64,000 bases of DNA, from assembly GCA_013368315.1 (NCBI GenBank), contig JAACJM010000226.1, positions 1-64,000 of the forward strand, given 5' to 3'. A program made the position numbers and the translations under genes. Of this stretch, positions 18,768-62,040 are shown piece after piece; within the stretch, counting starts at the first letter, position 1, and each line of letters opens with the position of its first letter. Source of the DNA: Tetrapyrgos nigripes. Lineage: Eukaryota; Basidiomycota; Agaricomycetes; Agaricales; Campanellaceae. The notes under the pieces were generated by a model. That model saw only the letters and a program-made list of their open reading frames with translations, did not search any database and was not told where the DNA came from.

Positions 18768-19109
18768 TGTATCTTTGTGAATGATATATGTGGCTGTAAA
18801 CTCAAAGCTCTTGTCAATTAAGTACAAATATCTTTCTCATTGTCGATGATCAGAGCACAAAAATATTTCCTTTGTCATAGTATGTGAGCCTGAAAATGAG
18901 CTAACAATATTGAGTCATGAACGGCCCGAGTAGCTCAGTGTATCTTTGTGAATGATATATGTGGCTGTAAAATCAAAGCTCTTGTCAATTAAGTACAAAT
19001 ATCTTTCTCATTGTCGACGATCAGAGCACAAAAATATTTCCTTTGTCATAGTATGTGAGCCTGAAAATGAGCTAACAATATTGAGTCATGAACGGCCCGA
19101 GTAGCTCAG
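18768..19109. repeat. Tandem duplication, two units of 171 bp
   Basis: Units 18,768-18,938 and 18,939-19,109 are nearly identical; I noticed two base differences. Each starts TGTATCTTTGTGAATGATA and ends ACGGCCCGAGTAGCTCAG. The close similarity means a recent duplication. It lies between two degraded coding fragments. Confidence 0.9.
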
Positions 19110-34898: not shown

Positions 34899-36525
34899 CA
34901 GTGGGCAAAAAAATTGTCCGCATGTTTCACACTTTTGCAAAGATTGTCAGTTATAGAGCTACTGAATAGATATGAGACAAAATAGTCAGTAATGGCCTGA
35001 AAGCCCTTGATAAGTGCTATGATAATCTTCTTGTTTTGTGTTATTTGGTCAAATACCCATGGAGATATACCAAATTAAAAATGGTAAGTCATTTGGACAA
35101 TTTTTTGAGTTGCTACTTTATCAATACTATTGGCACAATGTGATGCCTCATAGATGACATCATAAGTGGAGCTGTACAGTGATGCAATGTATACATCATA
35201 ATGATGTCATAGCTGTCAGCTAGACCATATATAAGGACATCCAGATCATCTATTGCCCCCATAAAATTGTGAGACCCATCACCTCCACTCAGAAAGACAA
35301 TGTCCTCTCTCATCTCCAAACTGGCGCTTCATCCAGGGAAATCTCTGCTCAAACTGGAGTATCCAAGTCAACGGTTGCCTCTCTGGCCAAGGAGATGTAT
35401 CCTGACAAGGAGAACCATAAGGCAGGGCGCCCTAAGATGCTCTCTACCACTGATGAACGGGCTGCTATCAAACAAATCAACACTGGGAAAGCCAGGAACG
35501 CTGCAGAGGTGGCCAGCAACATCAATCCCCTTCTTGACCAAGCTATCTCCACCCAAACCATGCGAAATTCCCTTCACAAACATGGTGTAGACACCAAGAA
35601 ACCACAGAAAAAGCCCAAACTCACTGCAGCTCACAGGAAGGCTCGTTTAAAATTTGCAGAGAAGTACAAGGACTGGACTGTGGATGACTGGAAATGGGTT
35701 ATATGGTCAGATGAGACTAAAATCAATTGGTTTGGGTCAGATGGGCAGCAGTTTGTGTGGGGTAGGACAGGTGAATCCATGGGAGAGAGAGATGTGGTGG
35801 AAACAGTCAAATTTGGAGGAGGAAATATCATGGTGTGGGGGTGTATGGGATGGGATGGACCTGGAAACATGGCAGAGGTTGAGGGAAGGATGGATGCAGA
35901 GCAGTATGTGGACATTTTGGAGAACAATCTTCTGGAGAGCATGGATCGTTTGGGTATTGATCCGGAGATGGCCATTTTTCAGCAGGATAACGATCCAAAA
36001 CACAAGTCAAAACTAGCCACCAAATGGTTTGAGGAGAACAAAATCCATTGCATGAGCTGGCCTGCTCAGTCTCCTGACCTAAACCCCATTGAACACCTCT
36101 GGACAACCCTCAAATGCAAACTCAATGAGTATGATACAGCACCATCTGGAGTTTGGGAAATATGGGATAGAGCAGCAGAAAAGTGGGTAGAAATCACAGA
36201 AGAGGATTGTCAGAAATTGATCAGGAGTATGCCTAGAAGGATCAAAGCTGTTTTGAAGGCTAAAGGAGGGCATACCAAGTACTGAGCAAGCACTTTCTGT
36301 ATTTTAAGGCATATGTCAAAAAATTGTCCAAATGACTTACCATTTTAAATTGAGTATATCTCCATGGGTATTTGACCAAATAACACAACACAAGGAGATT
36401 ATCATAGCACTTATCAAGGGCTTTCATGCCATCATTGACCATTTTGTCTCATCTTTATTCAGTAGCTCTATAATTGACAATCTCTGCAAAAGTATGAAAC
36501 ATGCGGACAATTTTTTTGCCCACTG
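34899..36525 (+). mobile_element. Tc1/mariner transposon, nearly intact, 1.63 kb
   Basis: The ends CAGTGGGCAAAAAAATTGTC and the complement at 36,525 are flanked by TA on both sides, the obligatory Tc1/mariner target. The terminal inverted repeats are long, about 210 bp (34,899-35,107 and 36,316-36,525), and differ at roughly 20 positions. One transposase frame fills the middle. A TATA-like CATATATAAGG (35,226) precedes it. Confidence 0.92.
35269..36285 (+). CDS. Tc1-type DD34E transposase (no ATG at the expected start)
   Basis: There are 338 uninterrupted codons. Residues 1-60 are the helix-turn-helix (for example SSREISAQTGVSKSTVASLA), followed by the GRP hinge (KAGRPKML) and a second HTH. 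The catalytic triad is visible: WSDETKINWFG (first Asp), FQQDNDPKHKS (second Asp), SPDLNPIEHLW (Glu), with exactly 34 residues between the second Asp and Glu. This is DD34E of the Tc1 group. It cuts and pastes DNA at TA sites in the nucleus. The N-terminal HTH begins right after GTG (35,269). I find no in-frame ATG upstream without a stop; the first in-frame ATG is at about 35,395 and would remove the first HTH. The start codon may therefore have mutated, leaving this copy unable to make a full-length protein. Confidence 0.9.
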   Translation: MRPITSTQKDNVLSHLQTGASSREISAQTGVSKSTVASLAKEMYPDKENHKAGRPKMLSTTDERAAIKQINTGKARNAAEVASNINPLLDQAISTQTMRNSLHKHGVDTKKPQKKPKLTAAHRKARLKFAEKYKDWTVDDWKWVIWSDETKINWFGSDGQQFVWGRTGESMGERDVVETVKFGGGNIMVWGCMGWDGPGNMAEVEGRMDAEQYVDILENNLLESMDRLGIDPEMAIFQQDNDPKHKSKLATKWFEENKIHCMSWPAQSPDLNPIEHLWTTLKCKLNEYDTAPSGVWEIWDRAAEKWVEITEEDCQKLIRSMPRRIKAVLKAKGGHTKY

Positions 36526-39409: not shown

Positions 39410-42400
39410 CACTGGGTGCAAATACCCGTAAATACATTGTCATACTGTGATATTACTGAAGACTTACTCAGTGCCAATCAGTTTGTAAATCCCCATGTAT
39501 TATGGAAGTATTATGTTAAAGCCAAAATTTCACAGCAATTCCATAAGGTTTCTGTAAGTCAAGGTGTATTACTGGGGTCTTTCTATGTGAGATTCTGTCA
39601 CAGTAATACATACTACAATACCATTGAGAAATACAGAAACATTTTGTTGTGACACAGAGTCACAGTATGTCATAGAGTAATACAGCCTGGATTTATAGAA
39701 GACTTACACAAATGAAATACTGTAAATACACTGTCATACTATGACATTAATAAAGACTTACTTAGTGCCAATCAATTGTATATCTCTGTGTATTACAGAA
39801 GTATTACAGAAGTATTACAGAAAAGCAAAAATTTCACAACAGTTCCATAAGGATTCTGTAAATCAAGTTGTATTACTAGGATTTTTCAATGTGACATTCT
39901 GTCACAGTAAGACATAGCGTAATACCATTAAGATATACAGAGATATTGATGTGACACATGGTCACAGTATGTCATATAGTAAGACTGGCCAGTTTTACAG
40001 AAGATTTATGAGATTAAAAGCTATAGTAAATCACAAGAAATTGTCATTGTATTTATCATAGATTTACTGAGTGACAAAATGGTAACAGAAATGGATCAAT
40101 AAAATCAGGTGTATTATGGAAGCTTTATGGAATCCAAAATATTTCCATAGAATGTCATAAGTTCACAGAAAAGTCTTACACCAAGATGGAATACATATAG
40201 TATCCTGGATATGCTGAAAGAGTTAAAGTATGACCCCTGTAAGTCAAGGGGAATTATTTTAAATTTATTGAATAGCAGGTATTCCATAAATCTTGGGTAA
40301 ATCATATGGACTTACATAAGATATATATAGAGACGGGAGTTCATAAAATGATAGTGTAAGAGTGCAAGTCTTACTGTAGATTTATGGAATCACAAGTCAA
40401 ATTTTTGAAGATAGTGAAGGTGTACAAAAGGTATACAAAATGTGGGGAGGTGCTGTGACAGTGCTGTGAGCTTGTGAAGAATATCATTGTCATGAAGGTG
40501 TCACAAAAGTGTCATGAAGGTATCATGAAAGTGTTGCAAAGGTGTCATGAAGATGTCATGAAGATGTCATGAAGGTGTCGTGAAGGTGTCACAAAGGTGT
40601 TGCAAAGGTGTCATGAAGGTGTCGTGAAGGTGTCGTGAAGGTGTCATGAAGGTGTCGTGAAGGTGTCATGAAGGTGTCATGAAGGTGTTGCAAAGGCGTT
40701 GCAAAGGTGTCATGAAGATGTCGCCGAAGGTGCCGTGAGGGTGTTGCAAAGGTTTGGTGAAGGTATCATGAAGGTATTGGGAAGGTGTCACGAAGGTATC
40801 GTGAAGATGTTGCAAAGGTATCAGGAAGGTGTTGTGAAGTTATCATGAAGGTGTCATGAAGATGTCATAAAGGTGTGGTGAAGGGGTCGCGAAGGTGTCA
40901 GAAAGGTATTGGAAAGGTGTTGTGAAGACGTCATGAAGGTGTGGTGAAGGGGTGTCATGGTGAAGGTGTTGCAAAAATGTCATGGAGGTAGCATGAAGGT
41001 GTTGTGAAGGTATCGGGAAGGTGTCGCAAAGGTGTCATGAAGATGTCGTGAAGGTGTCGTGAGGGTGTTGCAAAGGTTTGGTGAAGGTAGCATGAAGGTA
41101 TTGGGAAGGTGTCATGAAGGTATCATGAAGGTGTTGCAAAGGTATCGGGAAGGTGTTGCAAAGGTATTGTGAAGGTGTCATGAAGGGGTTGCAAAGGTGT
41201 CGCAAAGGTGTTGTGAAGGTATTGCAAAGGTGTCATAAAGATGTCGCTGAAGGTATCATGAAGGTGTCGTGAAGATGTCGCGAAGGTATCATGAAGGTAT
41301 TGAGAAGATGTCAGGAAGGTATCAGGAAGGTGTCATGAAGATGTCATGAAGGTGTCGTGAAGGTATCAGGCAGGTGTCGTGAAGGTATCCTGAAGGTATG
41401 GGGAAGGTGTTGTGAAGGTATGGGGAAGGTGTTCTGAAGGTGTTGGGAAGGTGTCTGAAGGTATTGTGAAGGTGTCATGAAGATGTCGTGAAGGTGTGGT
41501 GAAGGAGTGTCATGAAGATGCCGTGAAGGGGTCGTGAAGGTGTCATAAAGATATCATGAAGGTGTCATGAAGGTGTTGCAAAGGTTTTGTGAAGGTGTCA
41601 TGAAGGTATCATGAAGGTGTTATGAAGATGTCACAAAGGTATTGTGAAAGTGGCGTGAAGGTGTCATGAAGGTGTTGCAAAGGTTTTGTGAAGGTGTTGT
41701 GAAGGGGTTGCAAAGGTGTTATGAAGGGGTTGCAAAGAAGGTATTGTGAAGGTGTCACAAAGGTGCCACAAAGGTGTTGTGAAGGGGTCAGAAAGGTGCC
41801 ATGAAGATGTCGTGAAGGTGTTCTGAAGACGTCCTGAAGGTGTGGTGAAGGGGTGTTGTGGTGAAGGTGTTGTGAAGATGTCGTGAAGGTATCGTGAAGG
41901 TGATGTGAAAGTACCTTTTTGCTACTGACATCTTCATGACACCTTCACGATACCTTCATGATACCTTCCCGATTACTTCCCAAGACCTTCATGACACCTT
42001 CACAAAACCTTTATGACATCTTTATGACACCTTCGTGACCCCTTCACGACCCCTTTGTGACACCTTCACTACACCTTCACGACACCTTCATGACATTCTC
42101 ATGACACCTTCATGATACCTTCACAACACCTTACCTTCATGACACCTTCACGATACCTTCACAACACCTTCCCGATACCTTTGCAAAACCTTCACAATAC
42201 CTTCCCGACACCTTCATGACACCTTTGTGACACATTGACGACACCTTCACAACATATTCATGACACCTTGACTATACCTTCAGACACCTTCCCAACACGA
42301 CACCTTCGTGATACCTTCATGACACCACCTTCACAATACCTTCATGACATCTTCACCACACCTTCACTACACCTGCACAACACCTTCCTGACACCTTCCC

Positions 42401-45400
42401 AACATCTTTCATGATACCTTCATGATACCTTCAGGACACCTTCACAATACCTTCACAATACCTTCATGACACCTTCAGGACACCTTCCCGACATCTTCTG
42501 ACACCTTCATGATACATACCTTCATGTCAACTGAAGATGTCATGAAGATGTCGTGAAGGTGTCGCAAAGGTGTCGCAAAGGTGTCATAAAGGTGTCGTGA
42601 AGGTGTCATGAAGGTGTCGTGAAGGTGTCATGAAGGTGTCGTGAAGGTGTCATGAAGGTGTTGCAAAGGTGTTGCAAAGGTGTTGCAAAGATGTTGCAAA
42701 GGTGCTGCAAAGGTGTCATGAAGATGTCGCCGAAGGTGCCGTGAGGGTGTTGCAAAGGTTTGGTGAAGGTATCATGAAGGTATTGGGAAGGTGTCACGAA
42801 GGTATCGTGAAGATGTTGCAAAGGTATCAGGAAGGTGTTGTGAAGGTATCGTGAAGGTGTCATGAAGGTAAGGTGTTGTGAAGGTATCATGAAGGTGTCA
42901 TGAGAATGTCATGAAGGTGTCGTGAAGGTGTAGTGAAGGTGTCCTTCATGATATCTTCCCGACACCTTCATGACACCTTTGTGACACCTTTGTGACACCT
43001 TCACGACACCTTTGTGACCCCTTCACGACCCCTTTGTGACACCTTCACTACACCTTCACCACACCTTCATGACATCCTCATGACACCTTCATGATACCTT
43101 CATAACACCTTACCTTCATGACACCTTCATGATACCTTCCCGACACCTTCATGACACCTTTGTGACACCTTCACAACACCTTTGTGACCCCTTCACAACC
43201 CCTTTGTGACACCTTCACTACACCTTCACCACACCTTCATGACATCCTCATGACACCTTCATGATACCTTCACAACACCTTACCTTCATGACACCTTCAC
43301 GATACCTTCACAACACCTTCCCGATACCTTTGCAAAACCTTCACAATACCTTCCCGACACCTTCATGACACCTTTGTGACACCTTTGTGACACCTTCATG
43401 ACACCTTCACAACATATTCATGACACCTTCACCATACCTTCAGACACCTTCCCAACACGACACCTTCGTGATACCTTCATGACACCACCTTCACAATACC
43501 TTCATGACATCTTCACCACACCTTCACTACACCTGCACAACACCTTCCTGACACCTTCCCAACATCTTTCATGATACCTTCATGATACCTTCAGGACACC
43601 TTCACAATACCTTCACAATACCTTCATGACACCTTCATGATAACTTCACAACACCTTTCTGATACCTTTGCAACATCTTCACGATACCTTCATGACACCT
43701 TCCCAATACCTTCATGATACCTTCACCAAACCTTTGCAACACCCTACGGCACCTTCGGCGACATCTTCATGACACCTTTGCAACACCTTTGCAACACCTT
43801 CATGACACCTTCACGACACCTTCATGACACCTTCACGACACCTTCATGACACCTTTGCGACACCTTTGCGACACCTTCACGACATCTTCATGACATCTTC
43901 AGTTGACATGAAGGTATGTATCATGAAGGTGTCAGAAGATGTCGGGAAGGTGTCCTGAAGGTGTCATGAAGGTATTGTGAAGGTATTGTGAAGGTGTCCT
44001 GAAGGTCTCATGAAGGTATCATGAAAGATGTTGGGAAGGTGTCAGGAAGGTGTTGTGCAGGTGAAGGTGGTGGCATGAAGGTATCACGAAGGTGTCATGT
44101 TGGGAAGGTGTCTGAAGGTATTGTGAAGGTGTCATGAATATGTCGTGAAGGTGTCGTGAAGGTGTCACAAAGGTGTCACAAATATGTCACGAAGGTGTCA
44201 TGAAGGTGTCGGGAAGGTATTGTGAAGGTTTTGTGAAGGTATCGTGAAGGTGTCATGAAGGTAAGGTGTTGTGAAGGTATCATAAAGGTGTCATGAGGAT
44301 GTCATGAAGGTGTGCTGAAGGTGTAGTGAAGGTGTCACGAAGGGGTCATGAAGGGGTCATGAAGGTGTCATAAAGATGTCATAAAGGTTTTGTGAAGGTG
44401 TCATGAAGGTATCGGGAAGTAATTGGGAAGGTATCATGAAGGTATCGTGAAGGTGTCATGAAGATGTCGGTAGCAAAAAGGTACCTTCACAGCACCTTCA
44501 CGATACCTTCACGACATCTTCACAACACCTTCACAACGACACCCCTTCACCACACCTTCAGGACACCTTCAGAACACCTTCACGAAACCTGTGCAACACC
44601 TTCACGACATCTTCATGGCACCTTCCTGACCCCTTCACAACACCTTTGCGGCACCTTTGTGACACCTTCACAATACCTTCTTTGCAACACCTTCATGACA
44701 CCTTTGCAACCCCTTCACGACACCTTCACACTACCTTCATGACACCTTCATGACATCTTCATGACACCTTCACGCCACTTTCACGATACCTTTGTGACAT
44801 CTTCATAACACCTTCATGATACCTTCATGACACCTTCCCAATGCCTTCATGACACCTTCACAAAACCTTTGCAACACCTTCATGACACCTTCATGATATC
44901 TTTATGACACCTTCACGACCCCTTCACGGCATCTTCATGACACTCCTTCACCACACCTTCACGACATCTTCATGACACCTTCACAATACCTTCAGACACC
45001 TTCCCAATGCCTTCACAACACCTTCCCCATACCTTCACAACACCTTCCCCATACCTTCAGGATACCTTCACGACACCTGCCTGATACCTTCACGACACCT
45101 TCATGACATCTTCATGACACCTTCCTGATACCTTCCTGACATCTTCTCAATACCTTCATGATACCTTCGCGACATCTTCACGACACCTTCATGATACCTT
45201 CAGCGACATCTTTATGACACCTTTGCAATACCTTCACAACACCTTTGCGACACCTTTGCAACCCCTTCATGACACCTTCACAATACCTTTGCAACACGTT
45301 CCCAATACCTTTGCAACACCTTCATGATACCTTCATGACACCTTCCCAATACCTTCATGCTACCTTCACCAAACCTTTGCAACACCCTCACGACATCTTC

Positions 45401-46955
45401 ATGACACCTTTGCGACACCTTCCCGACACCTTCACAACACCTTCACACTACCTCCATGACATTTTCGCAACACCTTCACCATGACACCCCTTCACCACAC
45501 CTTCACGACGTCTTCACAACACCTTTCCAATACCTTTCTGACACCTTTGCGACCCCTTCACCACACCTTCATGACATCTTCATGACACCTTCATGATAAC
45601 TTCACGACACCTTCCTGATACCTTTGCAACATCTTCACGATACCTTTGTGACACCTTCCCAATACCTTCATGATACCTTCACCAAACCTTTGCAACACCC
45701 TCACGGCACCTTCGGCGACATCTTCATGACACCTTTGCAACACCTTTGCAACACCTTCATGACACCTTCACAACACCTTCACAACACCTTCATGACACCT
45801 TTGCGACGACACCTTCATGACACCTTTGCAACACTTTCATGATACCTTCATGACACTTTTGTGACACCTTCACAACAATGATATTCTTCACAAGCTCACA
45901 GCACTGTCACAGCACCTCCCCACATTTTGTATACCTTTTGTACACCTTCACTATCTTCAAAAATTTGACTTGTGATTCCATAAATCTACAGTAAGACTTG
46001 CACTCTTACACTATCATTTTATGAACTCCCATCTCTATATATATCTTATGTAAGTCCATATGATTTACCCAAGATTTATGGAATACCTGCTATTCAATAA
46101 ATTTAAAATAATTCCCCTTGACTTACAGGGGTCATACTTTAACTCTTTCAGCATATCCAGGATACTATATGTATTCCATCTTGGTGTAAGAGTTTTCTGT
46201 GAACTTATGACATTCTATGGAAATATTTTGGATTCCATAAAGCTTCCATAATACACCTGATTTTATTGATCCATTTCTGTTACCATTTTGTCACTCAGTG
46301 AATCTATGATAAATACAATGACAATTTCTTGTGATTTACTATAGCTTTTAATCTCATAAATCTTCTGTAAAACTGGCCAGTCTTACTATATGACATACTG
46401 TGACCATGTGTCACATCAATATCTCTGTATATCTTAATGGTATTACGCTATGTCTTACTGTGACAGAATGTCACATTGAAAAATCCTAGTAATACAACTT
46501 GATTTACAGAATCCTTATGGAACTGTTGTGAAATTTTTGCTTTTCTGTAATACTTCTGTAATACTTCTGTAATACACAGAGATATACAATTGATTGGCAC
46601 TAAGTAAGTCTTTAGTAATGTCATAGTATGACAGTGTATTTACAGTATTTCATTTGTGTAAGTCTTCTATAAATCCAGGCTGTATTACTCTATGACATAC
46701 TGTGACTCTGTGTCACAACAAAATGTTTCTGTATTTCTCAATGGTATTGTAGTATGTATTACTGTGACAGAATCTCACATAGAAAGACCCCAGTAATACA
46801 CCCTGACTTACAGAAACCTTATGGAATTGCTGTGAAATTTTGGCTTTAACATAATACTTCCATAATACATGGGGATTTACAAACTGATTGGCACTGAGTA
46901 AGTCTTCAGTAATATCACAGTATGACAATGTATTTATGGGTATTTGCACCCAGTG
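39410..46955. mobile_element. Giant foldback element, 7.5 kb, with minisatellite core
   Basis: The ends CACTGGGTGCAAATACCC and its complement are flanked by the 3-bp duplication CCA (39,407-39,409 and 46,956-46,958). The unique parts of the terminal inverted repeats (39,410-40,440 and 45,870-46,955) are over 1 kb and almost identical. Each contains two diverged copies of a module of about 290 bp (39,420-39,710 and 39,720-40,010). The whole interior is an 11-bp minisatellite. CACTG termini and a 3-bp target duplication suggest a CACTA-like transposase. The element encodes no recognisable protein; the small frame present in both arms (for example 39,341-39,652 and 46,713-46,949) is the same sequence twice. 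Confidence 0.85.
40440..45870. repeat. 11-bp minisatellite in alternating orientation blocks
   Basis: The consensus is GAAGGTGTCRT with many TTGCA, ATCAT and GTTGT variants. Orientation is forward at about 40,440-41,920, reversed to about 42,525, forward to about 42,945, reversed to about 43,905, forward to about 44,480, and reversed to 45,870. The 33-bp (3x11) periodicity creates meaningless open frames of the HDTFxTPSxHL type. A block of about 187 bp is duplicated at 42,950-43,320. Confidence 0.92.
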
Positions 46956-49730: not shown

Positions 49731-50404
49731 AAAAACGTGCTGGAGAATGGCGAGGTAAGGGACACTCATAGTAGGTAGAATTGAGGACTCGGAGCCAGGT
49801 CATACGGGTAAAGATGTGGCATTTCAGTCTAACTAGAGTACCAGGAAAGGGGTGTATATATGCAGTATGTACTGCCCCAAAATTAGTGGAGTCATAGGAG
49901 GTAGATGTGGAAGGCTGAATGCGTTAACGACAGCGACGCAGCTTGGAGGCATTCGGTAACCCTGCAGAACTGCAATATAGGTCGAATGAACGTAGATTAG
50001 AAGGTAAAACACGCACCTGAAGAAACAATGCCGTGCAAAAACCAATCCAAAGGTGCTAACAGGTATCCAATGGCGCAGTCCTGTCCTTTCTACATCCGAC
50101 GAATCTTCCTATTTTGCTTCAACTAGCCCTATAAGAATCATCCCGATGTATTATGGATGCGACGTGAACAGGATTTGGGGTCTGGGTGAAGGAGAGTTGT
50201 TAGGGAAGGAGTGACATAATCTTGAAGGCAAGGGTTGGAAATGAACCAGTAGACGTATATATATCTGTAGAATGGTGGTAGCACGAGGTTAAGCGAATAA
50301 AAGAAGGTAACAGAGAAGAAGGTGGTTGAGGTGAGTCTTGTGACCAAGGCGGGTGCAACGACGAGCACGTACATTCACCAAATTACCACGTAGCACCCAT
50401 ATTA

Positions 50405-50690
50405 GACCGACTATGGATAGCGATGATCCAGGGGAGTCTGTTGATATACTTCTTGTGAGGGTTAGGGGAGAACCGGCATGGATATAAGCTCACCTTGTGT
50501 AAAATGCCAACTTGAGAGTTATTGCGTCGGATTGCTGAAGGCGAACTTGGGCACTCCTTCACCGTTCGTCAGGGTTGGACCGGCTATGGATAGCAGTGAC
50601 CCTGGGAAGTCTGTTGGCATACTTTTCATGAGGGATAATCGAAGACTGGTATGGATATAGACTCACCTTTGCCCAGGTGCACGCGGCAGA
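50405..50690. repeat. Imperfect tandem duplication, unit about 173 bp
   Basis: GACCGACTATGGATAGCGAT at 50,405 recurs as GACCGGCTATGGATAGCAGT at 50,578. Both are followed by GTCTGTTG(A/G)(T/C)ATACTT and (C/T)GGTATGGATATA(A/G)(G/A)CTCACCTT-type sequence. The surrounding 49,740-51,250 stretch has no gene I can support. Confidence 0.65.
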
Positions 50691-51271
50691 TTGTTGAAAC
50701 TTGAGGGTGAGGCTCGGGCTGATACAAGTTGCTGTTTACCTTTGTTCAACGGCCCCGATCGCAAGAAAAAATCCATCCATCACATTGTGATCTGAGCGTC
50801 CAACCGACCTCTACTCATTCTCGACGTTCTGAGTCTTGTTGTTTGCTGCCTTCATGGAGTGAGGAGGTAGATAGAAAGGTTGTACTATACCCACTGTCGT
50901 GCTTGATGATATGATCTAGGTGCTCAAACTGAATTACATCGAGGTCAGGTCTCTCTTCTATTGTAGAGAAATCAGAAGTGGGTGTGGGTGTCCTTTCCCG
51001 TCACACACCGTGACATCGAACCTTGTCGCGTTCCTCCTCCGCCAAAACGCGTTTGTTCTCTCATCCGTTGTGCTTTTAACGTATCTTCTCCACATTCTGA
51101 GTATTGGACATCCAGTGAGGAGTGTCATGGATGGACTCAACCAGATGACGGTGAGGACCAAAGACGGTGTGGAAGTAGAGAGGGACGAGTGGAAGATTTG
51201 GGGGGAGAAGTTGCTTTGTGTCTTTGCAGACGAGACGAGACGAAGCTAACGCCCCACAGAGCTACTAACAC

Positions 51272-52131
51272 GAAGAGACCGTTTACGCTTACTCCAACGA
51301 CAACCCCAACAAGGTCTTTTCATACTCTCCCGGATCCCACAACCCCCCCCTCCCCACTCTCCAAATCCAACGCCAAATACCCAACCGTCGCCGCTCTCCA
51401 CAACTACTCGATGCCACCTGGGTCGACTACTTCTACTGCGACGGCAGCGAGTGCGGGTACGACGACGACGACGATGTGGAATGGGTCTGTGTCGGCGTTG
51501 CCGCCTATATCAAGTCTGATTATGAGTGCGTACAAGGGGAGGGGAGGGGGTGATGTAACAGGTGGACGTAAGTGTTGTTCTTTTTTGTCGTTTTTTGTTT
51601 TTCTATAGTGTCTTCTCTTTCGACTGCTACCCCATCCAACGTTTTCCGTCTTCATCTACTCCTGAAACCTGTCCTTTTGGTTTAATCTGCTCTGTCGTTT
51701 GTATTCTTTTTTCACATGTCTGTTCCCATCTTATCTTTAAATTTCTTCCTCTCTACGTCTTTGATTGCGTTTAAGCAAAGTAACGGGCTACTGACGTTCT
51801 CTTCCTTCTTCCCCCTTCCTCTCCTTCTCGTATTCCCATCCCCACTACCGACCTCGCCGCGTCCGACGTGTACGATGTCAGCTGTGACTACGTTGTCGAT
51901 TCGAATCCCCACCACCTCCCCATCTTCTCTCCTCCCCGCCAAACCATCATCCATACTCGCAAACGTGTTTGGTTCTTAGATTCGGTTTCGGGTTTTTGTT
52001 TCTCGTCTCAGTCTCGGTCTCGTACACAGGCCCTCTCGACGCCGTCTTCCTATCCAGCATTGGAGTTGATGTCCCGCCTGAGGACGGGGAGGAATGGTAA
52101 TGGGAAGGAGAAGAGGGGCTTGCTACAGTAG
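51272..52131 (+). CDS. Hypothetical acidic protein, uncertain exons
   Basis: One frame at 51,272-51,553 reads VYAYSNDNPNKVFSYSPGS and later LLDATWVDYFYCDGSECG, then D-rich, VEWVCVGVAAYIKSDYECV, before TGA. A second protein-like frame at 51,868-52,131 (YDVSCDYVVDSNPHHLP) may be its next exon. No start codon or donor could be placed with confidence. The Cys/Asp-rich block is not a family I recognise. A competing frame (51,411-51,590) is Thr/Ser-rich and probably a shadow. Confidence 0.35.
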
Positions 52132-53651
52132 GTCTGATAGCACATTACATTATTACATTGCAACGAATCACGAACACGAACACTTTTTTGGATATCTTTT
52201 TCTGTGTCACTGTGTTAGTTGGTCTCGGTGTGGAGAAGGGTAGCCCCGAACACTCGTGGGCACATTCAACCAACCGACTGGGGAATGAGTCTAGTGACGA
52301 AGGTATACTGTTGGTCGGAAAACGACATGTACATAGAAATGAGAAAAACTGGACGAAAAGTACCCGAGCCTTATTCATAGGTAAGTTTCTTGTACTAAAA
52401 TTATTTTCGCAAAATATAAACTTGCATGGGCTGCTCAAGCCTTGCGAGTTCCGCGTGGGTACCTCAAGTCGCCAACATAAAGGGTCATGTAGACATTCGA
52501 GTAGAGCGTGTTCTGCACCGCTCACATGAACCCCTTCATGCAGAAAAGACCTCAACCTTATTGTCATTGCTACTCTGCAGCAAATCCAAACCCTCGAACA
52601 AGCGGCCGGAGGACCAAATCATTCACTCCGTTTAATTAAGCAACCAAATCTTCACCGTCTTGAAGGGAAGAAGGACATGGCGCAACTTGGGCATACATAC
52701 ACGTACATCACTCATAACAGCCCCCTGATCATTCGCACTTATATCAATGACATTGACCAGCCTCTTTTTTTAAATCTTTGCTAGATATTGAACCCTGGTA
52801 GAGTAAAGTATAGTCGCAGATATACACTATATACAAAACAAATACAATTTTCCGGGTTTAAAATTTGTAGTTTTGGATGCCTACTACGATGACTTGAGTC
52901 TGGGGTATGAGGGAGGGGAGTTAGGGCTGTTGCGAATATGTATACGCGAGCAATAGAGGGAGAGGTGCAAAGACATTGGCGAACAGAGAAGCAGGAAGAT
53001 CATAGATGGGGAAGGACAAGATGACGGGGATTGTAAGGAGGGAAAGGACTGGGTTGGACATGAAAATTGAGCGGTATCAGGTCAGACAGCTGCGTTCCTA
53101 GTATCATGCCGCGCGCCACTCCTAGGTTGCTTCTAGGTTGGCTGTCAGTCATCCGGAACATGCAGTGCTTCTCGCCTACATTCTTGGTTCTTTTCTTCGA
53201 CACATGTCATACATGCTCATCGTTAATGTGACAAGCATGGAGTATAGTTACGATTCCTTAACGTCAGATTGAGACTTCTCACCAACTTCGCTGTCAATCC
53301 ATCTTCCGGAGTCAACTGTTCACGCCATTCTTGAAAAATTTTGGGGTTCTCACTAACTCATTTTTCAAGTCGCGTTTCGACCTTTTGTGCCGTAGGCATT
53401 CTTCCGATGTCCACGCATGAATGACAATACGCCATCGCAACGCGTTTACTATTTGAATACAGAGAATCACCGGAGCGCTCATCGATCAAATATTATTCTT
53501 AGTTCTGTCTCAACGTGTATCTGGGTGGTACGAATGCAACGTGTTCGTCTCATTCTTTTACTTCGACCATCGTTCCCTGCTCACCCAAGGCTCCTTTTCC
53601 CTATACTTTCCTACGCACACCCTCTCTACTCTTCTTGCGCATAGTCCCACT
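52132..53651. other. Intergenic, upstream region of the microexon gene
   Basis: No gene was recognised. The last 100 bases before 53,652 are C/T-rich, as in fungal 5' leaders. The minus-strand frame 52,145-52,567 and plus-strand frame 52,158-52,529 overlap each other, and neither has splice support. Confidence 0.4.
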
Positions 53652-56600
53652 ATGAGCTCACCATCCATTCCCCAGAACCACCCATCATTCCAGATGTTCA
53701 CAAACGCACACCAGTTCTCAATGTCAGGAGTAACAATTTGGGCTGTCAATGGAAATTATAATCACAGTACGTCGCACATCAACCTTTAGAGAATGAAAAT
53801 CCTCTGAGCGCTTATATATCATCTTAGATCAGGGCGATCATGCCGAGGTGCGTCGGGAGTCTTCGGACTTCATCGGTGAAGCACACTTGTGAACTGCAGC
53901 GCATATAGGCCATCTATTACTGCAAATATCCCTTAAGATCCTCTCGCTCTGAGCTTCAAAGCTACTATGTTGTGGGTCAAAAACAGAAAGGAAGCAACTG
54001 TGAAAGTGAGCTGGTAGTACGACGATTTGCACAGGAGAAGGATCGGGATAATTTTGTGGCATTACTAGCGAAGTACGGGTATGTGTCTTGAGTTTCTACT
54101 TGTGAATATCTTTCTCATATCATGAACCGTCAAGTTGGGCTCCATTTGTGATGAGAAAACTCTGGGAACTCACCATTAATGGTGATGCATGTCTGGCTGT
54201 GTCATCTGCAGGTAGTCTCATATTCCTGGCTCTGTTTTTTATTTGTTTGATTTTCATATACCAAAAGCTGTATATACATGGCAGGAAATGATGGGGAAGC
54301 ACCTACAGATGGATACTCTTGTATCTCGACTAAGAATGGTAACTTTTCATTGGATTTTTGGATTTAATTTCCACTGACTATTAATCAAAGTACTTCAAGA
54401 TTGGTGTATGGCATTGACTTATATCCTGTGGTTACAAGTATTGGACTGATAAAAAACAGGCTTTTTTTGAACAGACTCAAGCGATTCAACCAGGTGAATG
54501 GGAATGGCCATATGTATGGCATAGCAGGCGAAAATATGGGAATCTAAGACTCTTTGATGCAAATGGCAACTTGGTTTTGGACCCTGAACAGCTGGAGAAT
54601 GATCATATGGTTCATCAAGAACCTACACAATTTGAGGTATGGAATCTGTACCATAAATTGATAGCTTACCAAAGTATTGCAGCAACAAAGGGTCAACAAA
54701 TTTTGGACTACAATGTCTAGGCGGCAGGATATCACCAGACCATATCTAGGTAAGTCAAAGACTCCTATGAAGCATTTTAAGGATGGACAACATATCAGTG
54801 CTGCAGATGGGGTAGGTCTGCAGCGATTTATACAGGGACATATGGCAGAGCCAGTGAGTGTTTTCTCTGTTTCCAGCTGTGCCTTTCACCTCTGTCTGTG
54901 CTGACTCCTGTGTCTTCTGGTCTCTGCAGTTCGTGAGTGCCTCTGTTTCCAGCTGCACCTTTCAGCTCTGTCTGTGCTGACTCCTGTGCCTTCTGGTCTC
55001 TGCAGCCTGTGAGTGCCTCTGTTTCCAGCTGTGCCTTTCAGCTCTGTCTGTGCTGACTCCTGTGCCTTCTGGTCTCTGCAGTCTGTGAGTGTCTCTGTTT
55101 CCAGCTGTGCCTTTCAGCTCTGTCTGTGCTGACTCCTGTGCCTTCTGGTCTCTGCAGTTGGTGAGTGCCTCTGTTTCCAGCTGTGCCTTTCAGCTCTGTC
55201 TGTGCTGACTCCTGTGCCTTCTGGTCTCTGCAGGATGTGAGTGCCTCTGTTTCCAGCTGCGCCTTTCAGCTCTGTCTGTGCTGACTCCTGAGCCTTCTGG
55301 TCTCTGCAGCGTGTGAGTGCCTCTGTTTCCAGCTGCGCCTTTCAGCTCTGTCTGTGCTGACTCCTGTGCCTTCTGGTCTCTGCAGCCAGTGAGTGCCTCT
55401 GTTTCCAGCTGCACCTTTCAGCTCTGTCTGTGCTGACTCCTGTGCCTTCTGGTCTCTGCAGTTTGTGAGTGCCTCTGTTTCCAGCTGCACCTTTTAGCTC
55501 TGTCTGTGCTGACTCCTGTGCCTTCTGGTCTCTGCAGTTTGTGAGTGCCTCTGTTTCCAGCTGCGCCTTTCAGCTCTGTCTGTGCTGACTCCTGTGCCTT
55601 CTGGTCTCTGCAGCCAGTGAGTGCCTCTGTTTCCAGCTGCGCCTTTCAGCTCTGTCTGTGCTGACTCCTGTGCCTTCTGGTCTCTGCAGCGTGTGAGTGC
55701 CTCTGTTTCCAGCTGCGCCTTTCAGCTCTGTCTGTGCTGACTCCTGTGCCTTCTGGTCTCTGCAGCGTGTGAGTGCCTCTGTTTCCAGCTGCGCCTTTCA
55801 GCTCTGTCTGTGCTGACTCCTGTGCCTTCTGGTCTCTGCAGCGTGTGAGTGCCTCTGTTTCCAGCTGCGCCTTTCAGCTCTGTCTGTGCTGACTCCTGTG
55901 CCTTCTGGTCTCTGCAGCGTGTGAGTGCCTCTGTTTCCAGCTGCGCCTTTCAGCTCTGTCTGTGCTGACTCCTGTGCCTTCTGGTCTCTGCAGTGTGTGA
56001 GTGCCTCTGTTTCCAGCTGCACCTTTCAGCTCTGTCTGTGCTGACTCCTGTGCCTTCTGGTCTCTGCAGGATGTGAGTGCCTCTGTTTCCAGCTGCGCCT
56101 TTCAGCTCTGTCTGTGCTGACTCCTGTGCCTTCTGGTCTCTGCAGTTGGTGAGTGCCTCTGTTTCCAGCTTTGCCTTTCAGCTCTGTCTGTGCTGACTCC
56201 TGTGCCTTCTGGTCTCTGCAGGATGTGAGTGCCTCTATTTCCAGCTGTGTCTTTCAGCTCTGTCTGTGCTGACTCCTGTGCCTTCTGGTCTCTGCAGGAC
56301 GTGAGTGCCTCTGTTTCCAGCTGTGCCTTTCAGCTCTGTCTGTGCTGACTCCTGTGCCTTCTGGTCTCTGCAGGACGTGAGTGCCTCTGTTTCCAGCTGT
56401 GCCTTTCAGCTCTGTCTGTGCTGACTCCTGTGCCTTCTGGTCTGTGCAGGACGTGAGTGCCTCTGTTTCCAGCTGCACCTTTCAGCTCTGTCTGTGCTGA
56501 CTCCTGTGCCTTCTGGTCTCTGCAGGACGTGAGTGCCTCTGTTTCCAGCTGCGCCTTTCAGCTCTGTCTGTACTGACTCCTGTGCCTTCTGGTCTCTGCA

Positions 56601-59600
56601 GCGTGTGAGTGCCTCTGTCACCAGCTGCGCCTTTCAGCTCTGTCTGTGCTGACTCCTGTGCCTTCTGGTCTCTGCAGCGTGTGAGTGCCTCTGTTTCCAG
56701 CTGCGCCTTTCAGCTCTGTCTGTGCTGACTCCTGTGCCTTCTGGTCTCTGCAGTGTGTGAGTGTCTCTGTTTCCAGCTGTGCCTTTCAGCTCTGTCTGTG
56801 CTGACTCCTGTGCCTTCTGGTCTCTGCAGTTTGTGAGTGCCTCTGTTTCCAGCTGCACCTTTCAGCTCTGTCTGTGCTGACTCCTGTGCCTTCTGGTCTC
56901 TGCAGTTTGTGAGTGCCTCTGTTTCCAGCTGCGCCTTTCAGCTCTGTCTGTGCTGACTCCTGTGCCTTCTGGTCTCTGCAGGATGTGAGTGCCTCTGTTT
57001 CCAGCTGCGCCTTTCAGCTCTGTCTGTTCTGACTCCTGTGCCTTCTGGTCTGTGCAGGACGTGAGTGCCTCTGTTTCCAGCTGCGCCTTTCAGCTCTGTC
57101 TGTTCTGACTCCTGTGCTTTCTGGTCTCTGCAGTTTGTGAGTGCCTCTGTTTCCAGCTGCACCTTTTAGCTCTGTCTGTGCTGACTCCTGTGCCTTCTGG
57201 TCTCTGCAGTTTGTGAGTGCCTCTGTTTCCAGCTGCACCTTTCAGCTCTGTCTGTGCTGACTCCTGTGCCTTCTGGTCTCTGCAGGACGTGAGTGCCTCT
57301 GTTTCCAGCTGTGCCTTTCAGCTCTGTCTGTGCTGACTCCTGTGCCTTCTGGTCTCTGCAGGACGTGAGTGCCTCTGTTTCCAGCTGTGCCTTTCAGCTC
57401 TGTCTGTGCTGACTCCTGTGCCTTCTGGTCTGTGCAGGACGTGAGTGCCTCTGTTTCCAGCTGCACCTTTCAGCTCTGTCTGTGCTGACTCCTGTGCCTT
57501 CTGGTCTCTGCAGGACGTGAGTGCCTCTGTTTCCAGCTGCGCCTTTCAGCTCTGTCTGTGCTGACTCCTGTGCCTTCTAGTCTCTGCAGCGTGTGAGTGC
57601 CTCTGTCACCAGCTGCGCCTTTCAGCTCTGTCTGTGCTGACTCCTGTGCCTTCTGGTCTCTGCAGCGTGTGAGTGCCTCTGTTTCCAGCTGCGCCTTTCA
57701 GCTCTGTCTGTGCTGACTCCTGTGCCTTCTGGTCTCTGCAGTCTGTGAGTGTCTCTGTTTCCAGCTGTGCCTTTCAGCTCTGTCTGTGCTGACTCCTGTG
57801 CCTTCTGGTCTCTGCAGTTTGTGAGTGCCTCTGTTTCCAGCTGCACCTTTCAGCTCTGTCTGTGCTGACTCCTGTGCCTTCTGGTCTCTGCAGTTTGTGA
57901 GTGCCTCTGTTTCCAGCTGCGCCTTTCAGCTCTGTCTGTGCTGACTCCTGTGCCTTCTGGTCTCTGCAGGATGTGAGTGCCTCTGTTTCCAGCTGCGCCT
58001 TTCAGCTCTGTCTGTTCTGACTCCTGTGCCTTCTGGTCTGTGCAGGACGTGAGTGCCTCTGTTTCCAGCTGCGCCTTTCAGCTCTGTCTGTTCTGACTCC
58101 TGTGCTTTCTGGTCTCTGCAGTTTGTGAGTGCCTCTGTTTCCAGCTGCACCTTTTAGCTCTGTCTGTGCTGACTCCTGTGCCTTCTGGTCTCTGCAGTTT
58201 GTGAGTGCCTCTGTTTCCAGCTGCACCTTTCAGCTCTGTCTGTGCTGACTCCTGTGCCTTCTGGTCTCTGCAGTTTGTGAGTGCCTCTGTTTCCAGCTGT
58301 GCCTTTCAGCTCTGTCTGTGCTGACTCCTGTGCCTTCTGGTCTCTGCAGTTGGTGAGTGCCTCTGTTTCCAGCTGCGCCTTTCAGCTCTGTCTGTGCTGA
58401 CTCCTGTGCTTTCTGGTCTCTGCAGCCTGTGAGTGCCTCTGTTTCCAGCTGCACCATTCAGCTCTGTCTGTGCTGACTCCTGTGTCTTCTGGTCTCTGCA
58501 GTATGTGAGTGCCTCTGTTTCCAGCTTTGCCTCTCAGCTCTGTCTGTGCTGACTCCTGTGCCTTCTGGTCTCTGCAGCTTGTGAGTGCCTCTGTTTCCAG
58601 CTGCGCCTTTCAGCTCTGTCTGTGCTGACTCCTGTGCCTTCTGGTCTCTGCAGGATGTGAGTGCCTCTGTTTCCCGCTGCACCTTTCAGCTCTGTCTGGG
58701 CTGATTCCTGTGCCTTCTGGTCTCTGCAGTTTGTGAGTGCCTCTGTTTCCAGCTGCACCTTTCAGCTCTGTCTGTGCTGACTCCTGTGCCTTCTGGTCTC
58801 TGCAGGACGTGAGTGCCTCTGTTTCCAGCTGCACCTTTCAGCTCTGTCTGTGCTGACTCCTGTGTCTTCTGGTCTCTGCAGTATGTGAGTGCCTCTGTTT
58901 CCAGCTTTGCCTCTCAGCTCTGTCTGTGCTAACTCCTGTGCCTTCTGGTCTCTGCAGTCGGTGAGTGCCTCTGTTTCCAGCTGCGCCTTTCAGCTCTGTC
59001 TGTGCTGACTCCTGTGCCTTCTCGTCTCTGCAGTCCGTGAGTGCCTCTGTTTCCAGCTGTGCCTTTCAGCTCTGTCTGTGCTGACTCCTGTGCCTTCTGG
59101 TCTCTGCAGTCCGTGAGTGCCATTGTTTCCAGCTGTGCCTTTCAGCTCTGTCTGTGCTGACTCCTGTGCCTTCTGGTCTCTGCAGGATGTGAGTGCCTCT
59201 GTTTCCCGCTGCACCTTTCAGCTCTGTCTGGGCTGATTCCTGTGCCTTCTGGTCTCTGCAGTTTGTGAGTGCCTCTGTTTCCAGCTGCACCTTTCAGCTC
59301 TGTCTGTGCTGACTCCTGTGCCTTCTGGTCTCTGCAGGACGTGAGTGCCTCTGTTTCCAGCTGCACCTTTCAGCTCTGTCTGTGCTGACTCCTGTGTCTT
59401 CTGGTCTCTGCAGTATGTGAGTGCCTCTGTTTCCAGCTTTGCCTCTCAGCTCTGTCTGTGCTAACTCCTGTGCCTTCTGGTCTCTGCAGTCGGTGAGTGC
59501 CTCTGTTTCCAGCTGCGCCTTTCAGCTCTGTCTGTGCTGACTCCTGTGCCTTCTCGTCTCTGCAGTCCGTGAGTGCCTCTGTTTCCAGCTGTGCCTTTCA

Positions 59601-60206
59601 GCTCTGTCTGTGCTGACTCCTGTGCCTTCTGGTCTCTGCAGTCCGTGAGTGCCATTGTTTCCAGCTGTGCCTTTCAGCTCTGTCTGTGCTGACTCCTGTG
59701 CCTTCTGGTCTCTGCAGGATGTGAGTGCCTCTGTTTCCTGCTGCACCTTTCAGCTCTGTCTGGGCTGATTCCTGTGCCTTCTGATCCCTGTCAAAATGAG
59801 CTAGGAGGAGAAGGATGATTCTGAAGACCATGATGAATGCCGGTTTGAAGAAGTCTATGATTCTGAGACTGATATAGCACATAATGTCCAAGAATCAGGT
59901 ATCAATTTATAACAGTCATTCTCTCATTTGGCCTAACCTCATTCTCTAGCAATGGATGTAGATACTCCTGAATCCTTCCAAGCACAAGATCATTTCATGG
60001 ATGTTGACTCCACACCTATAGAGGATTCTCCTAAGCTGTCAAACTCCAGAAACTCCCAGGTGCTTCCTTTCTCCATTTGATATTATTGTTCAACTCAAAA
60101 TTTCCTCAAATTTTCTCTCCATCTCCTTTTTTAGTTTGAAACCATTTGTTACTCATGTGACTGTGTCACGGATGTTCCTATGGATATTGATAATGCTGGG
60201 ATGTAG
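53652..60206 (+). CDS. Microexon-array gene: flanking exons plus 64 single-codon exons
   Basis: Conventional 5' exons are 53652-53766, 53828-53847, 53909-54078, 54135-54211, 54285-54338, 54391-54437, 54475-54636 and 54683-54853. Then come 64 exons of 3 nt (first 54930-54932, then every 76 bases to 59718-59720), then 59805-59898, 59950-60059 and 60135-60206 (TAG). All junctions are phase-compatible; the spliced frame is 427 residues. The N-terminus (FSMSGVTIWAVNGNYNHNQGD) recalls the start of many agaricomycete repeat proteins. The middle has ESELVVRRFAQEKDRDNFVALL, and the last constant residues before the array are QGHMAEP. The tail is acidic (EEKDDSEDHDE) and ends with TICYSCDC. No enzyme domain is recognised. 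One weak point: 54438-54474 must be a 37-nt intron, or else a one-base insertion precedes YWTDKKQAFFEQ. Confidence 0.7.
54854..59804 (+). repeat. Tandem intron array: 76-bp unit = 73-nt intron + 3-nt exon, x64
   Basis: Sixty-five introns are in series: the first is 76 nt (54854-54929), the next 63 are exactly 73 nt, and the last is 84 nt (59721-59804, with acceptor CTAG). Every unit starts GTGAG and ends in TGCAG; the branch site is CTGAC (CTAAC or CTGAT in a few), 25 nt before the acceptor. The three bases between AG and GT take 14 forms. By unit: 1 TTC, 2 CCT, 3 TCT, 4 TTG, 5 GAT, 6 CGT, 7 CCA, 8-9 TTT, 10 CCA, 11-14 CGT, 15 TGT, 16 GAT, 17 TTG, 18 GAT, 19-22 GAC, 23-24 CGT, 25 TGT, 26-27 TTT, 28 GAT, 29 GAC, 30-31 TTT, 32-35 GAC, 36-37 CGT, 38 TCT, 39-40 TTT, 41 GAT, 42 GAC, 43-45 TTT, 46 TTG, 47 CCT, 48 TAT, 49 CTT, 50 GAT, 51 TTT, 52 GAC, 53 TAT, 54 TCG, 55-56 TCC, 57 GAT, 58 TTT, 59 GAC, 60 TAT, 61 TCG, 62-63 TCC, 64 GAT. 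Confidence 0.95.
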
Positions 60207-60905
60207 TTGACTGAATGTTACATGTATATAGATATAGAAAAGAGCGCAATAAGAACACCCTATGGACTACCAATATTGTAACATGATTAGGTAAAGGCCA
60301 CATGCCATATTACAATATTGCCAGGGCCTTGCCCACACAGTGTTCTAGGTGAGATATTGTGTGCTATATATGGGCTTGGCAGAGCTCAGCCAGGTGATGA
60401 AAGGGATAGTGGGGCATTTCATCAACAATAACAGTCACACAAACACTTTGTCTATTTGTTATTATTGCCAACACAGCTACTGATCCTCTTTGGGAAATCT
60501 CTTATGGAACAATGGGTACAGCCCCAGATCTTGGACTTAATGGATATATTGCAGATCCAGCAGTTCCAGGATATGGCTCCACATGCCTGTAAGGCTGCTT
60601 ATATTTCATACTATTCACTGCTTTGCTAAGTTCTAATGGTGCAGTTGGCTATTCCATTGACTTGATTGCCTTCTATGTTTGGTTCTGATATCCAGTGGTC
60701 TTGTGTTTGATTCCATGCAGTCTTTTTTTTTCTAAGTACACTGTTTTCTAGGTTTAAAGAGTATGCTATCTAAATACATTCCTCTGCCTTCTTGATAATG
60801 TCTCTGCCATCCTCTCTGAAGTCTAGAAAGAGAGTCAGCAATGACTGGATACAGTCAAGTACCTTGTAGGCATGGCTCCACAGCTTGTACCATCTTTCAG
60901 TGACA
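60207..60905. other. Downstream of the microexon gene; small hairpin
   Basis: CAATATTGTAA (about 60,272) and its complement TTACAATATTG (about 60,314) form a hairpin. A protein-like stretch at about 60,480-60,590 (WEISYGTMGTAPDLGLNGY) has no supporting exons. Confidence 0.4.
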
Positions 60906-62040
60906 TGAGTTGCTCTTTCCTCTATGCATAGGCATTCAAGCCTTCTGCAAACTCAGCAGTAACACCTGTCCTCATACTCTCTTGACCGCTTCATCCACCA
61001 CTCTCCCTTCCAAATCAAGTAATCAACCATCCAGCACAATTCCTCAGTTAGCAATATTAGCTTTTCCTGCCAATGACATACCTGAGCTTGTGCCTTACAC
61101 CACTCTACATGCAAATCATCAGGACAATCATGAGCCAAATAAGAATAATGGCAATACACACCCTCTTGGTCCTCTGGATCACCTTCAGAAAGCTCCTTGA
61201 GGCGCTATTACTGAAAAGGGAACCAAAGGGAAGGAAAAAATCAATGTCCAATTGCCTCAGACTCCCGCTGATAGGCGTTATGGTACTCCTGCACCCCCTC
61301 GTGCACGTACTTCCCCACTACCTCATACTTTTTCCCCATTCCCTCAGGCTTCTTTCCCACCACCTCGTACTCCTCCGCCACCACCTCCTATTCTTTCAAC
61401 ACCACCACCTCCTGTTCCTTCGCCACCTCGTAATCCTTGCCACCACCTTTGCCACCACCTCAAACCCCTTCACTACCATCTACTCCAAAACATACTCCCG
61501 CACCCTCTGCTACTCCTACAAATACTCCCAACACTCACAGAGACTCTCCTCATACTCCACTCCCTCATACACCCAAACCTTCTGCTTCACCACGTCCAGA
61601 CACTCCAGAGTCTACTCTGGGTAGTCGCTCCTCTGGATCTTTGTTTTCAAAGCCTCCCACCGTTAATATTGTTCTAGCTCTCGCAGCCTTGGCCTTGGGA
61701 GAGATGATCTGGAGCGGTCACTCATCATGGGTGTTGCGCTCATACAGCCAGGTCAGGCACAGCAGTTTGTTTCTGAAATGCGCTCTCTCTCAAAACAGCC
61801 TATTCGGCAGTCTTGTCCCGGCAGAGGGTGGCAAAGTCAGAGATCTAGAGGATACTGTGAAGCATCCGGTGGCAACTATCAACATGACTGTCGATGATCC
61901 AGACAACGTAGCTGTGGTAGTCAAGAATGCTGAGGACAATTGTGCGCTGAACAGGCCAAACGACAACAAGTACATCCCTGCGGGGCCTATCTCATGGTTC
62001 CTCCACTTTTTCCTACCCTCTCTGGTTGTCTAGTTTTTAC
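60906..62040 (+). pseudogene. Proline-rich hypothetical protein with stop and frameshift
   Basis: One frame runs from about 60,910 (IQAFCKLSSNTCPHTLL), hits TGA at 61,198-61,200, continues in the same frame as GAITEKGTKGKEKINVQ and RTPPPPPPILSTPPPP, then at about 61,440 shifts by one base into LPPPLPPPQTPSLPSTP and KPPTVNIVLALAALALGE. It ends at 62,031-62,033. The Pro-rich low-complexity part followed by a hydrophobic helix recalls repetitive multi-copy mushroom proteins. I cannot assign a function. The two lesions suggest a pseudogene, though the shift lies in a repetitive CCTTTGCCACCA stretch where assembly errors are likely. Confidence 0.5.

Follow-up and report, generated by a model that had tools for sequence, protein, structure and literature searches.

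The window analysed here is a 64,000-nt stretch of the basidiomycete Tetrapyrgos nigripes (assembly GCA_013368315.1, contig JAACJM010000226.1, positions 1–64,000 of the forward strand; this contig is called C221 below). It contains a predicted gene interrupted by an array of 64 nucleotide triplets, which are candidate single-codon exons separated by near-identical introns. Each triplet is preceded by CAG and followed by GTGAG, and all 63 spacings between neighbouring triplets are 76 nt; the first triplet lies at 54930–54932 and the last at 59718–59720. The array spans 54854, where the first donor begins, to 59804, where the final acceptor ends, and Tandem Repeats Finder reported a repeat at 54865–59790 with a period of 76, 94% matches, and 0% indels. 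The triplets took 14 forms, and their three columns had entropies of 1.52, 1.93, and 1.38 bits, compared with at most 0.90 bits anywhere in the 73-nt part. An earlier note, made from the letters alone, had described 64 exact 76-bp units without an indel over 54854..59804, with a near-constant 73-nt part and 14 triplet forms variable at all three positions, and our counts reproduced this description in full. Its account of the splice signals stood for the GTGAG donors and, in most units, for the CTGAC-type branch site (units 53 and 60 have CTAAC, and units 50, 57, and 64 have CTGAT), but not for the final intron, which is 84 nt long and ends in CTAG rather than TGCAG.

All 65 introns of the window array have the donor GTGAGT, whereas it is absent from the 10 ordinary introns of this gene. 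Over all the arrays described below, this donor occurs in 390 of 405 introns, a count made on units that were found by their likeness to that donor. Such strong donors may make up for the absent exon context around 3-nt exons. The most variable intron site in the window array is a CpG dinucleotide (CG in 25, CA in 19, and TG in 18 of 62 units), and the CpG at intron positions 24–25 shows CG, CA, and TG in three genes. A change from CG to CA or TG is the pattern given by the deamination of methylated CpG, which suggests that the arrays undergo CpG methylation and deamination.

Gene model of the window

The gene model was set by eye from an alignment of five paralogous loci, located on C221 and on the contigs designated C83, C131, C103, and C180. 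It comprises nine exons 5′ of the array and three exons 3′ of it, whose open frames encode 253 and 91 residues, respectively. The exon matches in C83 and C131 are ungapped, and some leave as many as 10 bases of the exon uncovered. The features are as follows.

53652..53766, plus strand: exon 1, with the start codon (MSSPSIPQNHPSF...), open frame and GTACGT donor; 98–100% identity, ungapped, to C83 and C131
53828..53847, plus strand: exon 2, 20 nt; same in C83 and C131; picked for its phase fit to exon 3
53909..54078, plus strand: exon 3, open frame, donor GTATGT
54135..54211, plus strand: exon 4; same in C83 and C131, 84% in C180
54268..54338, plus strand: exon 5
54391..54405, plus strand: exon 6, 15 nt; same in C83 and C131
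54460..54636, plus strand: exon 7, 59 residues; matches five genome loci, each beside an array
54683..54749, plus strand: exon 8
54807..54853, plus strand: exon 9, meeting the array in phase 0 (...HMAEP)
54854..54929, plus strand: first array intron, 76 nt, 5′ part slightly divergent
54930..59720, plus strand: 64 predicted single-codon exons and 63 intervening 73-nt introns
59721..59804, plus strand: last array intron, 84 nt, CTAG end
59805..59898, plus strand: exon after the array, phase 0 (EEKDDSEDHDECRF...); 94–95% identity over 87 of 94 nt, ungapped, to C83 and C131
59950..60059, plus strand: penultimate exon; 94–95% identity, ungapped, to C83 and C131
60135..60206, plus strand: last exon, with the stop codon TAG; 98.6% identity, ungapped, to C83 and C131

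Because the array is in phase 0 at both edges (253 + 64 + 91 residues), the predicted protein would have 408 residues if all the codons are read, or 344 if none is. The predicted spliced order is GAGCCA at the end of exon 9, then the triplet string, and then GAGGAGAAGG. The earlier note had also stated that the flanking exons meet the array in phase 0 and that no triplet is a stop, and both statements agreed with this open model and with the stop count over all the arrays (see below). The ordinary introns of the gene are 46–75 nt long. An alternative exon 2 at 53828–53875 was dropped in favour of 53828–53847 because it broke the frame.

Among 295 candidate homologues of the window protein in the protein collection, none matched at E 1 or better. 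In Pfam, the sole match of the 253-residue part scored 17.3 bits against a cut-off of 29.8, with no NACHT and no ankyrin match, and two of the three exons of the 91-residue end, scanned as pieces, gave no matches. Judged by eye, the predicted N-terminus MSSPSIPQNHPSF is unlike a signal peptide. Read-through translation of the 76-nt repeat was considered and rejected, because 76 nt does not divide into whole codons and the plus-strand frames are closed repeatedly by stops. In addition, 36 of the 41 off-length introns in all the arrays differ in length by something other than a multiple of 3, and a few of them are register faults. By these plus-strand stops and off-length introns, the conserved 76-nt repeat is not translated. 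The 75-residue minus-strand frames of the array were set aside as by-products of the repeat. The region of the window from approximately 50000 to 61200 is a segmental duplication, with stretches of 93–96% identity to C131 and 90–97% identity to C83; on C131, the duplication extends 1.4 kb beyond the array.

Thirteen arrays of the same design in one genome

Searches of the whole assembly (98.5 Mb, 587 contigs) identified 13 arrays of the same design, built on three different intron sequences. The earlier note had named arrays whose units differ mainly between AG and GT, in related genomes, as a sign in favour of its reading; we looked for such arrays and found them at other loci of the same genome.

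73-nt introns, five arrays: C221 (the window), C83, C131, C103, and C180, which are the five loci matching window exon 7
68-nt introns (second intron sequence), two arrays: C164 and C96
66/67-nt introns (third intron sequence), six arrays: C28, C388, C304, C34, C314, and C156

Each array intron, used as a query, retrieved only its own set (five, two, and six contigs for the 73-nt, 68-nt, and 66/67-nt introns, all of them array loci, among the best candidates scored). Pairs of CAG-NNN-GTGAG junctions 45–75 nt apart occurred 191 times in the forward and 0 times in the reverse direction over the whole genome, and the reversed-sequence control gave 1 and 0. Twelve arrays have 16 to 64 spacers, a spacer being the stretch between the AG of one intron and the GT of the next; the counts for C34, C314, and C156 are lower bounds, covering only the sequence around the array. 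In C388, 12 of 22 spacers are regular.

The arrays fall into two gene families. All five loci with a match to window exon 7 carry an array. The eight arrays with 66–68-nt introns lie on contigs that also carry a P-loop exon from a single GTPase family (12 genome matches), the link being uncertain for C96, where the P-loop match lies 8 kb from the array. The C28 GTPase exons matched MMR_HSR1 with 27.6 bits, over the cut-off of 21.9, and NACHT with 15.2 bits, under the cut-off of 26.7. Among the matches listed, none linked the window family to the GTPase genes. The upstream flanks of C304 and C388 are very similar, and to judge from these sequences the two may be copies of one locus in the assembly. 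Two GTPase paralogues, C118 and C278, were tried as empty sites and rejected: each is arrayless over 2.6 kb, but neither can be aligned with the flanks of the C28 array. Two further P-loop matches, on C368 and C412, have no known array.

Single 3-nt spacers also occur between unlike introns outside the arrays, namely ACA in C164 and ATG in C96, the latter within an otherwise closely matching stretch (loci L074 4480–4830 and L077 1–330). A 6-nt spacer reads GAGGCA in C28 and AAAGAT in C304 (loci L075 ~4390 and L078 ~125).

Stop codons and diversity of the spacers

Over the 13 arrays, 407 of 419 spacers are 3 nt long, and none of the 407 is a stop codon. When the columns were shuffled within each array, 21.1 stops were expected over all the units, and none of 2000 shuffles gave so low a count. 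When only the distinct triplets of each array were used, 4.1 stops were expected (p 0.006), and in the strictest set, that of distinct triplets in seven family groups, 3.1 were expected (p 0.02). Four spacers (one in C221, one in C103, and two in C28) had been re-registered from 1 nt, where the head pattern had caught GTGTGAG. Of the twelve off-length spacers, 10 belong to C388, where they were included in the 419, and two to C304.

The spacers were more diverse than the introns by a factor of 3.0 (C103) to 55 (C304) in 12 arrays, C388 being omitted and only units with the modal intron length being used (41 of 56 in C304). The earlier note's reading would have failed on a triplet no more variable than the rest of the unit in the relatives, and the contrast ran the other way in these arrays. 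The three spacer sites ranked 1–3 among all sites in 8 of the 12 arrays and 1, 2, and 4 in C314, and the third spacer position was nearly or wholly constant in C103, C164, and C96. In C304, 29 units with a letter-identical intron bear 10 codons. The donor, branch, and acceptor were less diverse than the other intron sites in 8 of the 9 arrays tested (of the 13; introns of at least 80 nt and undefined introns were omitted). In C103, the most diverged of the arrays, their diversities were 0.05, 0.10, and 0, compared with 0.17 elsewhere in the intron; a 47-nt intron in this array and, in the donor count over all the arrays, a GTGTCT donor are probably register faults of unit parsing. The pattern used in the unit search did not constrain the branch site. 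In the array peptides, D, F, L, R, G, and Y are abundant, T is absent, and K occurs once among the 407 residues; the residue make-up differs from array to array.

Turnover of codons among paralogues

The near upstream flanks of C221, C83, and C131 share 95.7–97.1% identity over 1.6–1.8 kb, and their downstream flanks share 93.2–95.6%. The codon strings of the same three arrays were no more alike than shuffled strings (fraction as good, 0.39, 0.29, and 0.59). Within C221, codon runs of 8 and 6 were repeated at offsets of 7 and 13 units, and within C180 a run of 8 was repeated at an offset of 7 units. These runs exceed the longest found in 300 shuffles (5), indicating that multi-unit blocks have been copied. 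Two C221 blocks that were compared show one difference in 60 codon bases and two in 1460 intron bases, which is too few for a rate.

Single-codon exons and rival explanations

We consider it probable, from the sequences compared, that the array consists of 64 single-codon exons, whose in-frame joining by splicing would yield a hypervariable peptide with a maximum of 64 residues. For this proposal of the earlier note, triplet-centred variation in the relatives, the absence of stops, the phase, and the splice signals count in favour, and the 3-nt length is neutral. Each unit would be removed as a short, intron-defined intron. Because every array exon is 3 nt long and lies in phase 0, the frame would survive the joining of a donor to any acceptor further along, and skipping of units would give a shorter or different peptide with the frame intact. 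Unequal exchange and conversion between units would homogenise the introns and shuffle blocks of codons, and diversifying selection on the peptide would maintain the codon differences, as described for hypervariable codons in the repeats of fungal NLRs. The likeliest role of the array peptide is that of a recognition or binding region for a changing partner, an argument from analogy and the least certain step.

Several observations weigh against this account or narrow what can be drawn from it. With C388 excluded, 2 of 397 spacers are off-length, compared with 1.8 expected at the introns' own indel rate; the exact 3-nt length alone is therefore no evidence of selection. In C388, 10 of 22 spacers depart from 3 nt; this array lies at a contig end, its length changes resemble homopolymer errors, and decay is possible. 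Among pairs of units with identical introns and unlike codons in five arrays, 753 of 772 differences are nonsynonymous, but the share is about the same for any unlike pairs of the same arrays (5254 of 5432), so that it is no test of selection, and diversifying selection is inferred only from the contrast between spacer and intron and from the unlike codons beside identical introns. The low diversity of donors and acceptors is partly built in because the unit search demanded GT, AG, and likeness to the donor and acceptor, and in C304 the donor and branch are more variable than the rest of the intron. Two 54-nt introns of C180 are without the CTGAC motif. A conserved exon of C103 carries one extra nucleotide relative to its paralogues (L072 ~3944–3986), and on this sequence C103 may be a pseudogene or contain an assembly error. 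Because the protein has neither a homologue nor a Pfam domain over the cut-off, its function is argued by analogy only.

If the triplets are never read, the array would be a non-coding minisatellite within one intron (54854–59804), removed at once or by recursive splicing. The phase 0 flanks, which leave an open 344-residue protein without the array, count for this explanation, and the 3-nt spacing is within the expectation from the indel rate. We nevertheless regard it as unlikely: a non-coding spacer should have yielded about 21 stops where 0 of 407 were found, the AG-NNN-GT layout is common to three intron sequences, and codons differ beside letter-identical introns. The splice signals are also less diverse than the remaining intron sites in 8 of 9 arrays, although this is partly built in, and the ordinary introns, at 46–75 nt, are far below 4.95 kb.

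The two other explanations concern the origin of the triplet diversity. Introner elements are near-identical introns that occur in large numbers in one genome, scattered over many genes, and the array introns resemble them in being many and near-identical. If such an element had been inserted repeatedly between the codons of an older frame, the codon diversity would predate the introns and no diversifying selection would be needed, which would account for identical introns beside unlike codons. However, the 13 scored contigs are all array loci; among the best candidates the array introns were met only in tandem arrays, with no single unlinked copies, although weak single copies may escape. Insertions that hit exactly each third base would be unexpected, and the multi-unit block copies point to growth by duplication; we regard this origin as very improbable. 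Directed mutation of the triplet (targeted editing or templated conversion), in place of ordinary mutation and exchange under selection, is in our judgement slightly less probable again. In its favour, unlike codons beside identical introns differ by two or three bases in most pairs in each of five arrays, which exceeds the yield of plain mutation. Nevertheless, there is no base signature, all four bases being present at all three sites, and the copied C221 blocks, which were picked for their likeness, carry too few differences (1/60 and 2/1460) for a fast process.

A broader proposal built on single-codon exons is one to which we give somewhat less than even weight. Each residue would be its own gene cassette, with the near-identical intron as a recombination handle, so that codons could be duplicated, deleted, and reordered in frame, either singly or as blocks; skipping at the RNA level would add peptide variants per cell, and two gene families would have acquired this device on three intron sequences. 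If this is true, the device is a general and repeatedly evolved way of writing hypervariable peptides, in which the introns form the constant part of a diversity-generating repeat and the protein keeps only the variable letters. The splicing demand would be 65 consecutive introns around 3-nt exons in one transcript. The 13 arrays and 419 spacers are enough to study how the diversity arises.

Comparison with known systems

The closest precedent comes from a truffle; truffles are ascomycetes, whereas the host here is a basidiomycete. The earlier note knew of no described system of this kind, a statement that does not hold: passages of three papers (PMC4986451, PMC3689799, and PMC10197012), citing Iotti et al. 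2012, describe alternatively spliced codon-sized 3-bp microexons in the NACHT-ANK (nank) expansion of Tuber melanosporum, in the context of NLR sensor domains. Tens of codon-sized tandem exons in an expanded fungal gene family, as those passages describe, occur here too at the level of the sequence. The difference is that the Tuber genes, as presented there, have NACHT and ankyrin domains, which are below the Pfam cut-off or absent in the 253-residue part of the window protein and in the C28 GTPase exons. The new elements are the basidiomycete host, genes without a recognised NACHT domain, and hypervariable codons set against near-constant introns. Codon-sized exons, cited for a single truffle NLR family, would here extend to further gene families and to a basidiomycete. 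Searches of the open-licence literature listed no basidiomycete with codon-sized exons in tandem arrays.

A second comparison concerns fungal NLR repeats with high internal conservation, which in the part of PMC4986451 consulted are WD40 and also ANK and TPR repeats. In het-d and het-e of Podospora, the WD repeats undergo concerted evolution with four codons per repeat under positive selection (PMC1805685, in excerpt). The arrays resemble these repeats in their near-identical units with few hypervariable positions, and the excerpt describes concerted evolution with exchange within and between genes (PMC1805685). As far as these sources extend, the constant part there is translated protein, whereas here it is intron, and the variable codon alone would reach the predicted protein.

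Other small exons offer partial parallels. In schistosome micro-exon genes, the exons are very small and symmetrical and can be skipped without loss of the frame, and the gene products are tied to secretions and glands (PMC4350168, from the portion seen). The phase 0 edges and 3-nt exons of the window gene share this symmetry and frame-safe skipping; set beside that portion, the difference is that all the array exons here are one codon long and the introns are near-identical. Among basidiomycetes, the P450 genes of Phanerochaete chrysosporium likewise combine very short exons with short introns, the shortest exon being 6 bp (two residues) and such microexons being single exons in many P450 genes; the section consulted describes no tandem arrays, and its exons are at least 6 bp (PMC1184071). 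In mouse Ncam, one exon of 3 nt is known, according to a passage of PMC8042270 that cites it, and a 2024 abstract states that functional microexons had until then been undescribed in filamentous fungi (PMC11121469). A reported 3-bp exon of Ganoderma gpd was rejected as a precedent, as it belongs to a longer exon (PMC8379801).

Other features of the window and the genome

The STE3 pheromone receptor family has 22 genome matches on three contigs, 21 of them over the cut-off, and STE2 has four short matches, one of which is just over the cut-off and contains an internal stop. This pattern points to a basidiomycete, as many STE3 genes without a clear STE2 are typical of that group. Within the window, a large inverted repeat at 39500–46865 has arms at 39500–40557 and 45808–46865 that are 99% complementary and possibly longer; its inner blocks are built from an 11-bp repeat whose orientation alternates (TGTCGTGAAGG / ACCTTCACGAC). 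On its sequence, it looks like a foldback-type element. A 171-bp unit is present in two copies at 18768–19109, with 98% matches, and an open 353-residue frame at 35224–36285 has Tc3-type HTH and DDE_3 transposase domains.

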